This document shows, piece after piece, positions 19,886-28,190 of a DNA stretch of 41,949 nucleotides. The number at the start of each line of letters is the position of its first letter. The first letter of the stretch is position 1. The position numbers and the translations under genes were made by a program. The stretch is taken from contig DVJN01000062.1 in assembly GCA_018716755.1 (NCBI GenBank), positions 1-41,949 of the forward strand, written 5' to 3'. The stretch is from Candidatus Alectryocaccomicrobium excrementavium. Lineage in GTDB: Bacteria; Bacillota; Clostridia; Christensenellales; Aristaeellaceae. The notes under the pieces are model-generated. The model was not told the DNA's origin. It was given only the letters and a program-made list of their open reading frames with translations, and searched no databases.

Positions 19886-19935
19886 AATTATTTTAATATA
19901 TAAAGAATCGAGCGCCGGGCAAAAACGATTCTCTG

Positions 19936-19969
19936 GTTCAATTTTGCCTTTTCGGCGTTCAATTTTACC
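19936..19969 (+). promoter_or_regulatory. tandem direct repeat (operator-like)
   Basis: GTTCAATTTTGCC (19936-19948) and GTTCAATTTTACC (19957-19969), 21-bp period, ending 6 bp before the -35. Confidence 0.6.
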
Positions 19970-19975
19970 GTTATA

Positions 19976-20005
19976 TTGAAATATGCCGCGCATACATGGT
20001 ATAAT
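19976..20005 (+). promoter_or_regulatory. sigma-70-type promoter for the cohesin-like protein gene
   Basis: TTGAAA-N18-TATAAT. Confidence 0.7.
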
Positions 20006-20068
20006 TTCGTAGCATATAGGTATGTCCGCCGCCTCGTGTGCGGCAGGTATGAGTGGGAGGAAGTTTTT

Positions 20069-23000
20069 ATGAACAAACACAGGGTGATATCCATGGCGGT
20101 CATCCTCACAATGATCGCAATGATGCTTGCGCCCGGCTCGGCGCTGGCCAGCGCAAGCATGAGTGTGAGCGCGCCTGCGACCGCCGCGCCTGGCGACACC
20201 GTGACGGTAACGGCCCGCATATCGCTGGGCAGTGATACCTATCAAGGCGTTTCTTCCAACAGCGTAAACCTAGACGGGTTGGAATTCGTCAGTGCCAGCC
20301 TGTCCTTTTCCGGCGGTTATATCGAAGCCTCCAATACTGGATTTGTGGCCGCTGGCGGTACCTACTCTTCGAGCGGCACCTATTCCTGCACAGTACGTAT
20401 CCCCATGACGGCGCAAAATGGTGATACTTTTACGGTTAGTATTGGCAGCTTCGACGCGCAGTTGGAAAGCGGCGAAGAAAATACTTACGGCGGCGGTTCC
20501 GCTACGATCAAGGTTTCCGGCGGTGGTTCTGGCGAGACGGATCCCGATCCTTCTACGCCCGTGAATCCCACGGATCCGGTCGTGCCCACCGACCCGAACA
20601 CCACCCCCGGCGCGCCCACGCCCACGCCGGATGCGAGCGGATACTCCTTCTCCGTGAGCGCTTCCGCCTCCAAAACGAATGTGAAAGCCGGCGACACGCT
20701 GAACATCCAAGTTTCCATTTCCGTGGGGCAGGGCGCGTATCGCGGCTTCAGCATGAATTTCTCCGGCAGCGGCGGTCTGGAACTGGGCGGCACGCCTTCT
20801 GCCTCGGGCCTCAGCCCGCTGGGCCTGAACGTATCGCAATACGGTTTTATGGCCACGAGCCTTTCCGGCGCGACGACCGGCAGCGGCACGGTGACCATCC
20901 CCGTGCGCATTCCCTCGGGCGCGAAAAATGGCGACAGTTACACCTTCACCGTTTCGAGCATTGAGGGCGTGACGGACAACGGCGTTTCGCAAAAGAAGAG
21001 CAGCGTGGAAGTGAAGCTGCGCGTAGGCGGCTCTTCCAGCGACGGCACCTCCGCGCCGGACGCCTCCCCCACCCCTGCCGTAACGCCCGTGCCCGTGCAG
21101 GCGCCCTCCGTGCGCACCACGCTGACGGGCGCCATGAGCGGCAACCAGGCGGGCGACACCGTGGCCTTCCAGCTGCGCTACAGCCTGATCAGCGGCGAGG
21201 CCACCGGCTTCTCCGGTTCTCTGAGCTACGATTACAACCTGATGGAGGTTTCCCGCATGTCCTTCGTGATTCCCAGCGATTGGACGTATTCGGCGGATCA
21301 ATCCTCCTTTACGGTTACAAAGAGCGGCGCTGCTCCGGCCATGACCAGCGCGTCCGACGAAATCATCATCAACATCCTGATGACGCTCAAGACCTCCACT
21401 TCCAGCGCCGCGCTGCTCACCGTCACGAACATGCGCGCTTCGGACACCCAGTGGAGCCAGCACATGCTCAACGACGCGAGCGCCATCGCCAGCACAGGCA
21501 CGCCGAGCTTCACCGCGGCCATGAGCGCTGTGGGCGACGCGGAACCCGGCGCCTATGTGGACATCGCCGTGGACTTCACGCCCATGAGCGGCGCATTCCA
21601 GGGCTTTATGGGTGTGCTGGAATACGACCAGAGCAAGCTGGCCTATGTGAGCGCGCAGGCCCCCAGCGGCTGGACGGTGCTCGCACAGGACAACCAGATC
21701 GGCGTGGCGAGCCAGGAAAACGTGGCTTTCATGAATGAGACCATCCGCCTGACGCTGCGCTTCTTCGTCAGCGCTTCCACGGTGGAGCGCGGAGAGACCA
21801 TTCCCATCACGCTCGGCAGCATTACCGGGCAGGGCATCACCGGCAGCCAGGATCTGAGCGCGTATCAGTTCTCCACACAGGATGCGGTGCTGAACCTTGC
21901 CATCAACGCGCAGACGCCCAGCTTCACGGCGGCGGCCAAGTCGGACACGCGCCGCACGCTGCCCGGATCGAACGTGATCTGCTCGCTGGAATTCACCTCC
22001 ACGGCAGGGCACCTGGCGGGCTTCTCCATGGATTACTCCCTCTCGGAAGGCCTGAGCATCATCAACGTGGTCAACGACCGCGGCTGGAACATGACCTACG
22101 AGGGCAATAAGCTGCGCGTGTATACCGATGCGATGAACGCCATCAACCGCGATGAAACGCTGCGCGTGGATTTCTATCTCAATGTGAGCGCGGCGGCTCC
22201 CTATGGCAGCACGCTGCAGCTGGAAACCGGCACCATCACGGGCGTTTCCCACCTGAGCGAAACCATGACGGGCGATGCGGTGAACGCGGGCGTACTCGTG
22301 CAGGCGGCCTTCGTGAACCAGAAGACCAGCGATTATGATTTCACCAGCGAAGTGAGCGCCAGCGTGAGCAACATGAACGAGCTGATGGTGGCCGGGCAAA
22401 ACTACGGCCCGCTGCTCAAGGACAAGCTGGGCGCGACCACGGGCTTCAATGTGTGCATCGCCGACATCGGCAATGGCGTGAACGTGCTGGCGCTGGATGC
22501 GCTGGCCAACGCGTCTGTATTCGAGCACCGGCAATTCTCCCTCACCCTGGCGCAGCTCAACCAGCTGCGCGAGGATGGCATCGGCTTCCTGGCGCTGGCC
22601 GTGGATGGCGGCATCCTGATGCTCAACCTGGATGTGCTCACCAGCCGCGACACGCGCGAAACGCTGGAAGCGGCGGAATATGATCTGGACAAGGCCAGCC
22701 TCTTCGTCAGCGTGGAACCCGCCACCGAAACGAACATGACCATCAGCGAATCCCAGCTGCTGGCCGCCCAGCCCACTGTATCCGAAGCGTATCGCTTCGA
22801 CGCTTACATCACCGATGGCACGGCACAGTACAACATCGGCCAGATCAAGAGCAACGGCGGCGCGGCGTTCGTGCTGTTCTCGCTGGAGGATGTGTATCTC
22901 ACCCGTTCGCTGGAAGGCGTCAGTTCCCTGCGCATCGCGCATATCGATTCCACGCAGATGGTGGCGGACAACGAAGCGCGCCGCCTGAGCGATTTGGTCA

Positions 23001-23077
23001 ACAACGATCATGTGCGCCTGTGCGCCGTGGGCCAGTACCAGGCGGAAGGCATTTATGCCGCCGCTACCGCCCAATAG
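20069..23077 (+). CDS. large secreted multi-domain protein with cohesin-like repeat modules and Pro/Thr-rich linkers
   Basis: Signal peptide MNKHRVISMAVILTMIAMMLAPGSALAS; five modules with pattern 'sv.a..GdtV.v.i.........g.....l.YD...l'; linkers DPDPSTPVNPTDPVVPTDPNTTPGAPTPTP and PDASPTPAVTPVP. Confidence 0.8.
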   Translation: MNKHRVISMAVILTMIAMMLAPGSALASASMSVSAPATAAPGDTVTVTARISLGSDTYQGVSSNSVNLDGLEFVSASLSFSGGYIEASNTGFVAAGGTYSSSGTYSCTVRIPMTAQNGDTFTVSIGSFDAQLESGEENTYGGGSATIKVSGGGSGETDPDPSTPVNPTDPVVPTDPNTTPGAPTPTPDASGYSFSVSASASKTNVKAGDTLNIQVSISVGQGAYRGFSMNFSGSGGLELGGTPSASGLSPLGLNVSQYGFMATSLSGATTGSGTVTIPVRIPSGAKNGDSYTFTVSSIEGVTDNGVSQKKSSVEVKLRVGGSSSDGTSAPDASPTPAVTPVPVQAPSVRTTLTGAMSGNQAGDTVAFQLRYSLISGEATGFSGSLSYDYNLMEVSRMSFVIPSDWTYSADQSSFTVTKSGAAPAMTSASDEIIINILMTLKTSTSSAALLTVTNMRASDTQWSQHMLNDASAIASTGTPSFTAAMSAVGDAEPGAYVDIAVDFTPMSGAFQGFMGVLEYDQSKLAYVSAQAPSGWTVLAQDNQIGVASQENVAFMNETIRLTLRFFVSASTVERGETIPITLGSITGQGITGSQDLSAYQFSTQDAVLNLAINAQTPSFTAAAKSDTRRTLPGSNVICSLEFTSTAGHLAGFSMDYSLSEGLSIINVVNDRGWNMTYEGNKLRVYTDAMNAINRDETLRVDFYLNVSAAAPYGSTLQLETGTITGVSHLSETMTGDAVNAGVLVQAAFVNQKTSDYDFTSEVSASVSNMNELMVAGQNYGPLLKDKLGATTGFNVCIADIGNGVNVLALDALANASVFEHRQFSLTLAQLNQLREDGIGFLALAVDGGILMLNLDVLTSRDTRETLEAAEYDLDKASLFVSVEPATETNMTISESQLLAAQPTVSEAYRFDAYITDGTAQYNIGQIKSNGGAAFVLFSLEDVYLTRSLEGVSSLRIAHIDSTQMVADNEARRLSDLVNNDHVRLCAVGQYQAEGIYAAATAQ

Positions 23078-23080
23078 GCC

Positions 23081-23776
23081 ATGTGGAAAATCGCGGTATT
23101 TGATGCCGATCCTCCCTTCGCCCAGCGCCTGGCGGCAAGAATTGGCGCGCTGTTTTCCCAGGAAAACAGCGCGCTTTCCTGCACTGTGGAATGCTTCACG
23201 GAGCTGAACGCCCTGTGCGCGCGCGCGAAGGAATTTGATCTGGCGTTTCTCGGCGACCCTGCAAACAGCGCGCCCCCCGTGCGCCGCGCCGCCTGGGAAA
23301 CGGAAATTGCCCTCGTGCCCCGTGGCAACCTGCATTTGCAGGAACTGCTGTGGACGCGTCCGCTGGGGTGCGTGGCCGCCCCGCACGACGATGGGCAGAT
23401 CCTGGGCGCGCTGCGCGCATTCTGGCAGTATCGGGGACAGGATTCCGTGTTCTTCATCGTAGAAACCCGCCGCCAGCTTTTGCACATCCGGCACGAGGAA
23501 ATTCTCTATTTCGAAAGCCGGGGCAAATCCGTCTATCCCCATCTGGTTTCCGGCGCGGCGGAAAGCTTCCCCGCGCGGCTGGATGTGGTGGCCGCCCGCC
23601 TGGCCGCGCAGCGCTATGTGCGCTGCCACCAGAGCTACCTGGCAAACCTGCGGCACATCCGGCAGCTGAACAAGGCCACCCACCAACTGCTGCTTTCCAG
23701 CGGCGCGGTCATTCCCGTCAGCAAGCAGTACTATGCGCAGGTTCACGAGCGCCTGCGCGAGGAACGGCCCCAGTGA
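23081..23776 (+). CDS. LytTR-type DNA-binding response regulator with degenerate receiver
   Basis: C-terminal LytTR pattern (IRHEEILYFESRGKSVYPHL...LAAQRYVRCHQSYLANLRHIRQL...IPVSKQYYAQVHERL); N-terminal short REC-like region MWKIAVFDADPPFAQRL. Confidence 0.85.
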   Translation: MWKIAVFDADPPFAQRLAARIGALFSQENSALSCTVECFTELNALCARAKEFDLAFLGDPANSAPPVRRAAWETEIALVPRGNLHLQELLWTRPLGCVAAPHDDGQILGALRAFWQYRGQDSVFFIVETRRQLLHIRHEEILYFESRGKSVYPHLVSGAAESFPARLDVVAARLAAQRYVRCHQSYLANLRHIRQLNKATHQLLLSSGAVIPVSKQYYAQVHERLREERPQ

Positions 23777-23840
23777 ACCCGGCCGGAGGCTCTCGCCGCG
23801 CCGCATACATTCGCGCTGGACAGGAACAAAATAACCCCCC

Positions 23841-23921
23841 TTCCCTCCCCCGGCATACCATGGATTGTGGCCCGCGCGCAAGCGGGCCGCGCACAGCATC
23901 CCATGGAATACGGGGGAGGAA
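23841..23921 (+). promoter_or_regulatory. long imperfect hairpin covering the SD of the NlpC/P60 gene
   Basis: 5' arm TTCCCTCCCCCGGCATACCATGG (23841-23863) pairs with CCATGGAATACGGGGGAGGAA (23901-23921); inner GGCCCGC-gcgcaa-GCGGGCC hairpin. Confidence 0.55.
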
Positions 23922-23925
23922 CCAT

Positions 23926-24621
23926 ATGTCTTTGTTGCATGAATGGCTGGAATATCTGGATCAATGGGTGGGCCGCGGCGCATATGTCTATGGCGCGCAG
24001 GGCCAGCGTGCCGACGAGGTCGGCAATGTGAAAACCTGGATTGAACACAAATCCAAAAGCAGGGAAACGGCCAAGCGCGCCTGGGCATTTTACCAACAGC
24101 TGACCGAGTTGCTGGAGCCGGAAGAGGTGCGCTTTTTCGATTGCAGCGGGCTGGCCATGTATTTCTTTCAGACCCTCAAAAAAATTTCCAAAACCGATGT
24201 CAGCGCCAACGGCCTGTGGCGCGGCTGCACAGCGCTCAAAAAAAGCGAGCTTAAGCCCGGCGATTTTGTGTTCATCGACACCAACGGCCGCAAAACGCAT
24301 GTGGGCTATGTAGCGCGCGATGGTCAAGTGGTCGAGGCCCGGGCCAGCGGCTATGGCGTGGAAAAATTTCCGCTGGGCGCGCGGCCATGGACGCATTATG
24401 GCCGCAGCAAATGGCTGAAAAGTGAAATTGAAGGCGAAGCGCCCCTCGAACCGCCCGCCAGGGAACGCACGGTGGAACAATGGCAGCTGATTTTGCTCAC
24501 CTGGGATCCCAGCAGCCTGCCAACCTTTGGCGCGGATGGCAAATACGGCCCGGAAACCGACGCCGCCCTGCGCGCGCTGATGGAAGACGCAGAAGCCTTC
24601 CGCCAGGCAAACAACCGATAA
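23926..24621 (+). CDS. NlpC/P60-family protein with C-terminal peptidoglycan-binding-like domain
   Basis: FDCSGLAMYFFQTLKK, LKPGDFVFIDTNGRKTHVGYVARDGQVVEA; C-terminus LTWDPSSLPTFGADGKYGPETDAALRAL. Confidence 0.85.
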   Translation: MSLLHEWLEYLDQWVGRGAYVYGAQGQRADEVGNVKTWIEHKSKSRETAKRAWAFYQQLTELLEPEEVRFFDCSGLAMYFFQTLKKISKTDVSANGLWRGCTALKKSELKPGDFVFIDTNGRKTHVGYVARDGQVVEARASGYGVEKFPLGARPWTHYGRSKWLKSEIEGEAPLEPPARERTVEQWQLILLTWDPSSLPTFGADGKYGPETDAALRALMEDAEAFRQANNR

Positions 24622-26475: not shown

Positions 26476-28026
26476 TCACGATGCGCCGCGTTCGCCGCAT
26501 TCCAGGGGCGGATGCAGCAGGAAATCAAACAGCGCCTCGCCGATGAAAGCGCGGGCCTGGGCCACCCGCCCGGCTTCCTGCGGCGTATCCATATCGCGCA
26601 CGGCAAAATAGATGGGCTTCTTTTCGCCCACATGATCGGGCGCGGCGGGATCATAGCGGCGAATGCCCAGGTTCAGGCCAAATTCATCCAGATTATCCGT
26701 GTAAGCGTGGTGCATGAACATATCCACGGTTTTCATCTGCCGCGCCTTCAAATACGCGAGCACATAGCCAGCTTCGCCCATTTTCTCCGTCATCTCCTGC
26801 ATGGGGCCGGATTGGGAATTGAAGCCCTGCTCGGAAAAAATGATGCGCCGTGGCGCGCCGCGATAGAGCATATGCGGCTGCGAAAGATAGGCTTCCAGCA
26901 CTTCCATATTTTTGAACGTGATCTTGGGCGTGGTAAGGGTAAAGTCCGGCGCGCGGTCGTGCCAGAAATCCGGCCAGCGCAGATCCTCGGGATAAGGATG
27001 GAAAGCCACGTGCCAGGGGAATTCCCCCTCGCGCGCGCTAAGCGCGGCCAGGTTCTCCAGCGCATCCCGGCTGGAATAATAGCGCAGGGGATAGTGCGGG
27101 TCGTTCGTGCTGCCGCACCAGTGATGGTCGAGGGAAGCATACACGCGGAAATGCGCGCAGTGCTTTTGCCCGCACAGCCACGCCTGCCGCAGGGCCTGCG
27201 TGTATTCGGCCATGTATTCTTCCATGGGCATCTCACCCGCGTTGCCCCAGATATACTGGCTGTCCACCTCGTTGCTGATGATCGCGCCCGCCGCGCGGCC
27301 ATATTTTCCGTCGGGCCGCGTGTAGCGCTCCGCCAGGAATTCCACGAAAGCGCGATAATAGCCCTGCCCTTCCTCCGTGCGCATGTCAAAAGCGCTGATA
27401 GCGACTTCGGGTCTGCCCCAGGCAAAGGACGGATGCATGCACGCTTCCAGCAGGGCGCGCTCGCCTGTCGAGTTGAACAGGCGCGGGGCGTTGAGCAAAA
27501 TCATGGTGACCAGCACGCCGCACCGCGCGCATTCCAGCATGTGCGCGTCCAGCGCCTCCACGGGCTCCCGCAGAAAATAGTATTCCCGGCCGTCGTGCTG
27601 GTAAGCAATGGTGTTTTCCCCCGGAACGGTGGTCATCAGCGCGAGCAGGTTGATGTTCACCGGCGATTGGCGCACGCCCAGCGCAAGCTTGTCCTCCGGC
27701 GTGCCGTGCAGCGCCTTGATGCCGCCCGGCTGCGGATAACCGGCGCGGTTCTCCGGCACATCCGCGGCAAAATCCGTCACAAACTGCGCGCCCTCCAGCG
27801 CTTCATCCCCCTGAAAAACCGTAAACCGCGAATACAGCCTGTCGTGCCCGCCCACAAAGCGGTCGATGGCAATGGTTTCGCTGGCGGCCCGCGTGTGCAC
27901 GCTGAGCGTGCGCGCTTTCCCGCCAACCACGGGCGCGCTCTCGCGCAGGATCAGGCTTTCGCCCGCCGCGCCTTCCAGGCGGAAAGCAATCTTCTCCCGC
28001 CCGGCTTCGATGGACACAATTTGCAT
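26476..28026 (-). CDS. DUF5722-like (TIM-barrel glycosidase-like) protein
   Basis: FLAERYTRPDGKYGRAAGAIISNEVDSQYIWGNAGEMPMEEYMAEY, WHVAFHPYPEDLRWPDFWHD, IIFSEQGFNSQSG; start ATG at 28026. Confidence 0.75.
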   Translation of the reverse strand: MQIVSIEAGREKIAFRLEGAAGESLILRESAPVVGGKARTLSVHTRAASETIAIDRFVGGHDRLYSRFTVFQGDEALEGAQFVTDFAADVPENRAGYPQPGGIKALHGTPEDKLALGVRQSPVNINLLALMTTVPGENTIAYQHDGREYYFLREPVEALDAHMLECARCGVLVTMILLNAPRLFNSTGERALLEACMHPSFAWGRPEVAISAFDMRTEEGQGYYRAFVEFLAERYTRPDGKYGRAAGAIISNEVDSQYIWGNAGEMPMEEYMAEYTQALRQAWLCGQKHCAHFRVYASLDHHWCGSTNDPHYPLRYYSSRDALENLAALSAREGEFPWHVAFHPYPEDLRWPDFWHDRAPDFTLTTPKITFKNMEVLEAYLSQPHMLYRGAPRRIIFSEQGFNSQSGPMQEMTEKMGEAGYVLAYLKARQMKTVDMFMHHAYTDNLDEFGLNLGIRRYDPAAPDHVGEKKPIYFAVRDMDTPQEAGRVAQARAFIGEALFDFLLHPPLECGERGAS

Positions 28027-28127
28027 GAGATAAATCCTCCCTTCGTTGAGAACCTTCTTCCTCCCTATCATACGAAATGACGGCTGCCTTGTCAATGCCC
28101 TGCGCCGCTTTTTGTGCCATTTTTCCT

Positions 28128-28156
28128 TTGCCTTTTGCGCGCGGCGGGTATATAAT
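28128..28156 (+). promoter_or_regulatory. promoter for the M55 peptidase gene
   Basis: TTGCCT-N17-TATAAT. Confidence 0.6.
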
Positions 28157-28190
28157 AGAGAAAAATCCAACCAACAAGTAGGAGGAACCC

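Follow-up and report, generated by a model that had tools for sequence, protein, structure and literature searches.

A LytTR-type direct-repeat pair as the probable operator of an exoprotein–regulator operon in Candidatus Alectryocaccomicrobium excrementavium

A pair of nearly identical direct repeats abuts the promoter of an operon encoding a secreted cohesin-repeat protein and a LytTR regulator in the window studied here (the whole analysed stretch of 41,949 bp from Candidatus Alectryocaccomicrobium excrementavium). The reading of these repeats (19936–19969) as a putative operator for some LytTR protein is well supported by the published geometry of such sites, by a bias of the genome towards repeat spacings of 20–22 bp, and by LytTR-linked loci with the same layout. 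The explanation we favor, with somewhat better than even confidence, is that the operator most likely serves the regulator encoded by the operon's own second gene, with tandem binding near −60 and, most likely, positive autoregulation. Given the operon linkage, the protein binding the repeats is most likely this regulator or its close cousin. The arrangement is of a known kind; its twist is a regulator devoid of the parts needed for switching by phosphorylation. The features of the locus are as follows.

19936–19948, plus strand: distal direct repeat GTTCAATTTTGCC, read from the sequence; center at about −70 relative to the inferred transcription start.
19957–19969, plus strand: proximal direct repeat GTTCAATTTTACC, read from the sequence; center at about −49 relative to the inferred transcription start.
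19958–19980, no strand assigned: imperfect inverted repeat (11+1+11), TTCAATTTTAC-C-GTTATATTGAA, overlapping the −35 element.
19976–19981, plus strand: −35 element TTGAAA, 6 bp after the second repeat.
20000–20005, plus strand: −10 element TATAAT, after an 18-bp spacer, with TGG ahead (extended −10).
20069–23077, plus strand: gene of the secreted exoprotein (1002 aa), with ATG at 20069 and a good ribosome site ahead.
23081–23776, plus strand: gene of the LytTR regulator P0001 (231 aa), beginning 3 bp past the exoprotein stop codon.

By direct reading and a pattern search, GTTCAATTTTGCC and GTTCAATTTTACC are identical at 12 of 13 positions and are offset by 21 bp, i.e., two helix turns. The first-pass annotation, which had described such a pair ending 6 bp before TTGAAA-N18-TATAAT, proved correct to the base. 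The 9-bp core GTTCAATTT, which leaves 12 bp between its copies and 10 bp before the −35 element, was picked by us from the 13 conserved bases, and the exact 12/10 spacing depends on that choice. An ACCGTT element pointed out in the same annotation is indeed present at 19967–19972, but it does not fall in the 21-bp register, and no independent evidence speaks for it.

The repeats are more than chance. When the 183-bp intergenic region was shuffled 20,000 times with its dinucleotides preserved, three shuffles gave a 12/13 pair at an offset of 21 bp, nine gave one at offsets of 20–22 bp, and 144 gave one at any offset between 13 and 60 bp. A chance duplication, or phased A/T tracts forming an UP-like element for the RNA polymerase alpha subunits with no dedicated regulator, is thus argued against by the shuffles at offset 21, and we consider this very improbable. 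Both repeats do carry AATTTT in helical phase, and the intergenic region (19886–20068) has 59% A+T in a genome with 59% G+C. However, the identity reaches beyond the A/T tract into the GTTC and CC flanks, and the promoter-abutting repeats of this genome that prefer a spacing of 20–22 bp include G+C-rich ones, e.g., CGTCCACTCGYGCAGAAA.

Neither 13-mer has another copy in the 3.05-Mb genome, and exact GTTCAATTTTRCC is likewise found at a single locus. A regulon search of the same genome with the 9-bp core pair, allowing for at most three mismatches, yielded only two further, weaker matches with three mismatches each. The exact 13-mer and core-pair searches therefore exclude, for the organism's own genome, the many unrelated copies that had been named as evidence against an operator. 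Among 308 genomes of the family, the focal repeat pair with at most three mismatches was observed in one other genome, as an isolated three-mismatch match. Pairs of the 12/13 type at 20–22 bp precede 3 of 758 sampled gene starts of the same genome, the focal one included.

In the 1.09 Mb (36% of the genome) covered by the genome-wide null for promoter-abutting repeats, five of the six loci with promoters scoring at least 9/12 are spaced by 20–22 bp, with 21 spacings allowed (P = 3e-4; 2e-3 without the focal locus). At a promoter threshold of at least 8/12 this holds for eight of 12 loci (P = 5e-5; 2e-4 without the focal locus), the expectation from spacing alone being 1 in 7. C8, a member of this set that seems to fall within coding sequence, is probably due to chance. 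Upstream of 79 LytTR genes, the 21-bp spacing by itself is not clearly enriched; the 21-bp excess near LytTR genes of the family comprises few clear cases and is weak after low-complexity and coding cases are dropped. The 21-bp repeats of locus L227, situated about 85 bp from the likely promoter, were left out of the count, and repeats of locus L178 similar to the C37 motif described below were rejected as lying in apparent coding sequence.

The canonical LytTR site is a pair of 9-bp repeats 10–13 bp apart (PMC11347149). In autoregulated LytTR operons, the 9-bp repeats are separated by 12 bp (11–13 bp) and are located 4–11 bp before the −35 element, with a bias to 10 bp (PMC6193735), and the AgrA repeats are centered at approximately −60 at both P2 and P3 (PMC4227749). 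The focal pair is centered at −59.5 relative to the inferred start, with its core spacer of 12 bp and gap of 10 bp. The LytTR-like geometry proposed in the first-pass annotation therefore stands: the offset, the gap to the −35 element, and the center near −60 equal those of published operators, and the pair has the properties of a LytTR direct-repeat operator, i.e., repeats of about 9 bp, 10–13 bp apart, just before the −35 element. The conserved 13 bp exceed the usual 9 bp of LytTR repeats. The focal repeats and those of the comparators described below differ in sequence, and in general the sequences of LytTR operator repeats vary between systems (PMC6193735).

Pair centers similar to the focal one were found at loci C37 (−57.5), C186 (−58), G163 (−57), and G067 (−55.5), again relative to inferred starts; these comparators were themselves chosen through the repeat scans, and therefore the shared register is support rather than an independent test. 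C37 (L041), from the same genome, contains a receiver-LytTR gene and a gene with a weak match to the GHKL domain. Its operator, CGTCCACTCG[CT]GCAGAAA in two copies 20 bp apart, is located 3 bp before TTGATT-N17-TATGGT and fronts a gene apparently encoding a secreted protein. Two sortase-like genes were also noticed by eye in this locus (L041, G000:C37, 2396–7541). The C37 operator is found again, flanks included, where contig C186 of this genome ends (L169, 8059–8128, near 23059–23128); the promoter there has diverged and the next gene is unseen. G163 and G067 come from the same family. At G163 (L218), two copies of GAG[AG]TTGCGCGATG, 21 bp apart and 4 bp before TTGCGC-N17-TATGTT, belong to the promoter of a receiver-LytTR gene located after a GHKL kinase gene. 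At G067 (L215), genes for AgrB (7e-29), a receiver-LytTR protein, and a GHKL kinase are followed by a thiopeptide precursor, whose promoter carries TTGGAT[GT][AG]TGGCAATAA twice, 21 bp apart. This region (G067:C20, 4927–7780) is a complete agr-type locus directly ahead of a thiopeptide-type precursor, and the thiopeptide is likely under peptide-sensing control.

Repeats with a spacing of 20–22 bp also precede an rpiR-family gene (L109, G000:C56, 2961–3960, minus strand), where GGGAAAATGA[CG]AA repeats 22 bp apart and 15 bp before the −35 element are a candidate self-operator of this non-LytTR regulator; therefore, the spacing alone cannot identify the regulator. Elsewhere, two copies of CATTCTTCCCT, 21 bp apart, are situated on both sides of the −35 element TTGACA (L213, G046:C69, 9263–9294, minus strand) and resemble a repressor site; the gene apparently encodes an N-terminal helix-turn-helix and a phosphatase-like body. 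AraC/XylS-type half-sites, too, are about 21 bp apart and adjoin the −35 element. We regard it as unlikely that the focal operator belongs to a different regulator, be it another, trans-acting LytTR protein of the genome or one of the AraC/XylS type. The long 13-bp repeats would fit AraC-type half-sites, and a 20-bp repeat pair is found before a sensor-like gene on a contig that also has an ABC-transporter permease gene. The genome encodes eight LytTR domains, any of which could bind; this also counts against assignment to the operon's own regulator, as does the fact that no orthologous locus was found in the family genomes. However, the sole regulator encoded in the operon is the LytTR protein, and the operator is present nowhere else in the genome, a confinement more in keeping with local autoregulation than with action in trans.

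The LytTR gene was correctly annotated from the start as the second gene of the transcription unit, given the 3-bp gap between the two genes. Since the region 23000–24000 has no promoter-like match, this gene is most likely transcribed from the promoter at 19976–20005. The longest open reading frame of the exoprotein opens at a false TTG (19976) within the promoter, the true start being the ATG at 20069. Profile search identified the operon neighbors as an NlpC/P60 gene, located downstream, and a Sir2 gene; a histidine kinase gene is absent from the operon and these neighbors. No structured leader RNA was detected (z 0.65), and Rfam gave zero matches within the window. Further along the window, long open reading frames overlap on opposite strands (26512–28077, plus; 26476–28170, minus); the plus frame has zero Pfam or NCBIfam matches, and codon usage points to the minus frame.

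With a score of 11/12 and TG ahead of the −10 element, the promoter is near consensus. Given a core promoter of this strength, nothing in the sequence demands an activator. Hence, the LytTR protein might bind the repeats but repress, or merely tune, an intrinsically strong promoter. Such negative autoregulation seems quite improbable to us, although CoxC is a LytTR repressor where the repeats overlap the −35 element (PMC11347149) and the orphan LytTR regulator CdtR exerts no control on its own gene (PMC12482169). The focal repeats stop 6 bp short of the −35 element, with no overlap, and LytTR proteins bound upstream of it mostly activate (PMC11347149). The inverted repeat that does overlap it (19958–19980) was rejected as no better than chance, one equally good being produced by 193 of 1000 shuffles. 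Under positive autoregulation, two LytTR domains would occupy neighboring positions on the same face of the helix, separated by two turns, with the pair centered near −60 and adjoining the −35 element; from there they would contact the RNA polymerase bound at a promoter of the sigma-70 type. The sign is most likely positive, so that the exoprotein–LytTR operon would activate its own transcription.

The encoded protein was rightly called LytTR: Pfam places a LytTR domain (PF04397, 6.9e-17) at residues 133–225 of P0001, and its sequence relatives in PDB are LytTR regulators, ComE among them. The conserved motif of the FhRhHRS type reads YVRCHQS, with Gln at the consensus-Arg site; AgrA has Asn at this position (PMC4227749). 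The N-terminal part aligns with receiver domains, but a Pfam receiver domain was not detected in P0001, though comparators match at 1e-15 to 1e-19. In alignments of seven and 66 proteins, the phospho-acceptor Asp is replaced by Gly, the Lys by Ala, the second acidic residue by Ala, and the Thr/Ser site by Pro/Val, i.e., four of five phosphorylation-site residues are lost. Among the 66 LytTR proteins of the family, Gly at the phospho-site occurs in seven and Ala at the Lys site in five, P0001 being counted in both. The initial typing of the regulator with AgrA, ComE, and VirR thus has to be revised, since a protein with such a degenerate receiver is not an ordinary phospho-regulator of that type. 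Judging by these residues, P0001 is probably not driven by phosphorylation as AgrA and ComE are, and its activity would probably follow its own level in the cell or respond to some other partner or ligand rather than to a histidine kinase. A single-sequence structure model of P0001 (pLDDT 45) was too poor for use.

No LytTR relatives above approximately 33–39% identity to P0001 were found in the 308 family genomes. Of the four nearest, the three examined (G046, G047, G225) each retain an intact receiver and lack an exoprotein partner. Other pseudo-receiver LytTR genes of the family, at L008/L178 (G016:C89) and L009/L170 (G003:C107), are located directly after large genes for ATPases that resemble type VII secretion EssC proteins and are putatively assigned as such.

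Several known systems share parts of this arrangement. Like the LytTR Regulatory Systems (LRS) of Streptococcus mutans (HdrRM, BrsRM; PMC6193735), the focal operon contains its own LytTR regulator without a working receiver and carries, immediately ahead of the −35 element, direct repeats about 9 bp long with 12 bp between them; by analogy, autoregulation would be expected. In contrast, LRS regulators are paired with a membrane-protein inhibitor, whereas the partner here is a secreted cohesin-repeat protein; no inhibitor gene of that type is adjacent to P0001, the downstream gene being NlpC/P60. Moreover, the focal regulator retains a degenerate receiver domain. AgrA (agr P2/P3) and ComE bind in tandem to a direct-repeat pair at the promoter of the regulator's own operon, with the AgrA center near −60, and such a pair is present here, too; but in P0001 the Asp that accepts the phosphate is missing, as are the conserved Lys and Thr, and its operon has no histidine kinase gene. 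CdtR of Clostridioides difficile (PMC12482169) is a LytTR protein with no cognate kinase known, and its gene belongs to the exoprotein locus that it controls. Unlike P0001, it retains the phospho-acceptor; CdtR leaves its own gene uncontrolled, and its exoproteins are unrelated to the focal one.

The exoprotein has a signal peptide, five cohesin-like modules (aa 30–746), and an uncharacterised C-terminal part. No membrane anchor was recognised; besides the signal segment at the N-terminus, the protein has a single weak hydrophobic stretch. The modules are in tandem, the remaining four being 20–28% identical to module 4, whose model (pLDDT 85) matches the cohesins 2vo8 and 2jh2 with TM-scores of 0.69–0.71 (E ~2.5e-5). 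As modeled, module 4 has a cohesin fold; by sequence the exoprotein has no Pfam cohesin match. No orthologue was found among the 308 family genomes. A single dockerin match was found in the genome (G000:C147, 29930–30088), inside a 2045-residue open frame, and it is the only possible partner found for the cohesin-like modules. A cellulosome-type scaffold is therefore unlikely; a role in adhesion or structure is just as likely.

A further step would be to regard the pseudo-receiver LytTR protein as a one-component, phosphorylation-independent switch, co-transcribed with the cohesin-repeat protein and activating only its own operon via a single private operator; we put this forward tentatively, as a doubtful extension of autoregulation. 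The mechanism itself is already familiar. If the favored explanation is true, it would provide an operator defined by sequence, and with it a direct means of assaying a LytTR regulator whose phosphorylation site is gone but whose promoter layout is still of the LytTR type. In that case, promoter-abutting repeats spaced by 20–22 bp would also be suggested as a readable signature of LytTR regulons, and of some others, in this uncultured family.
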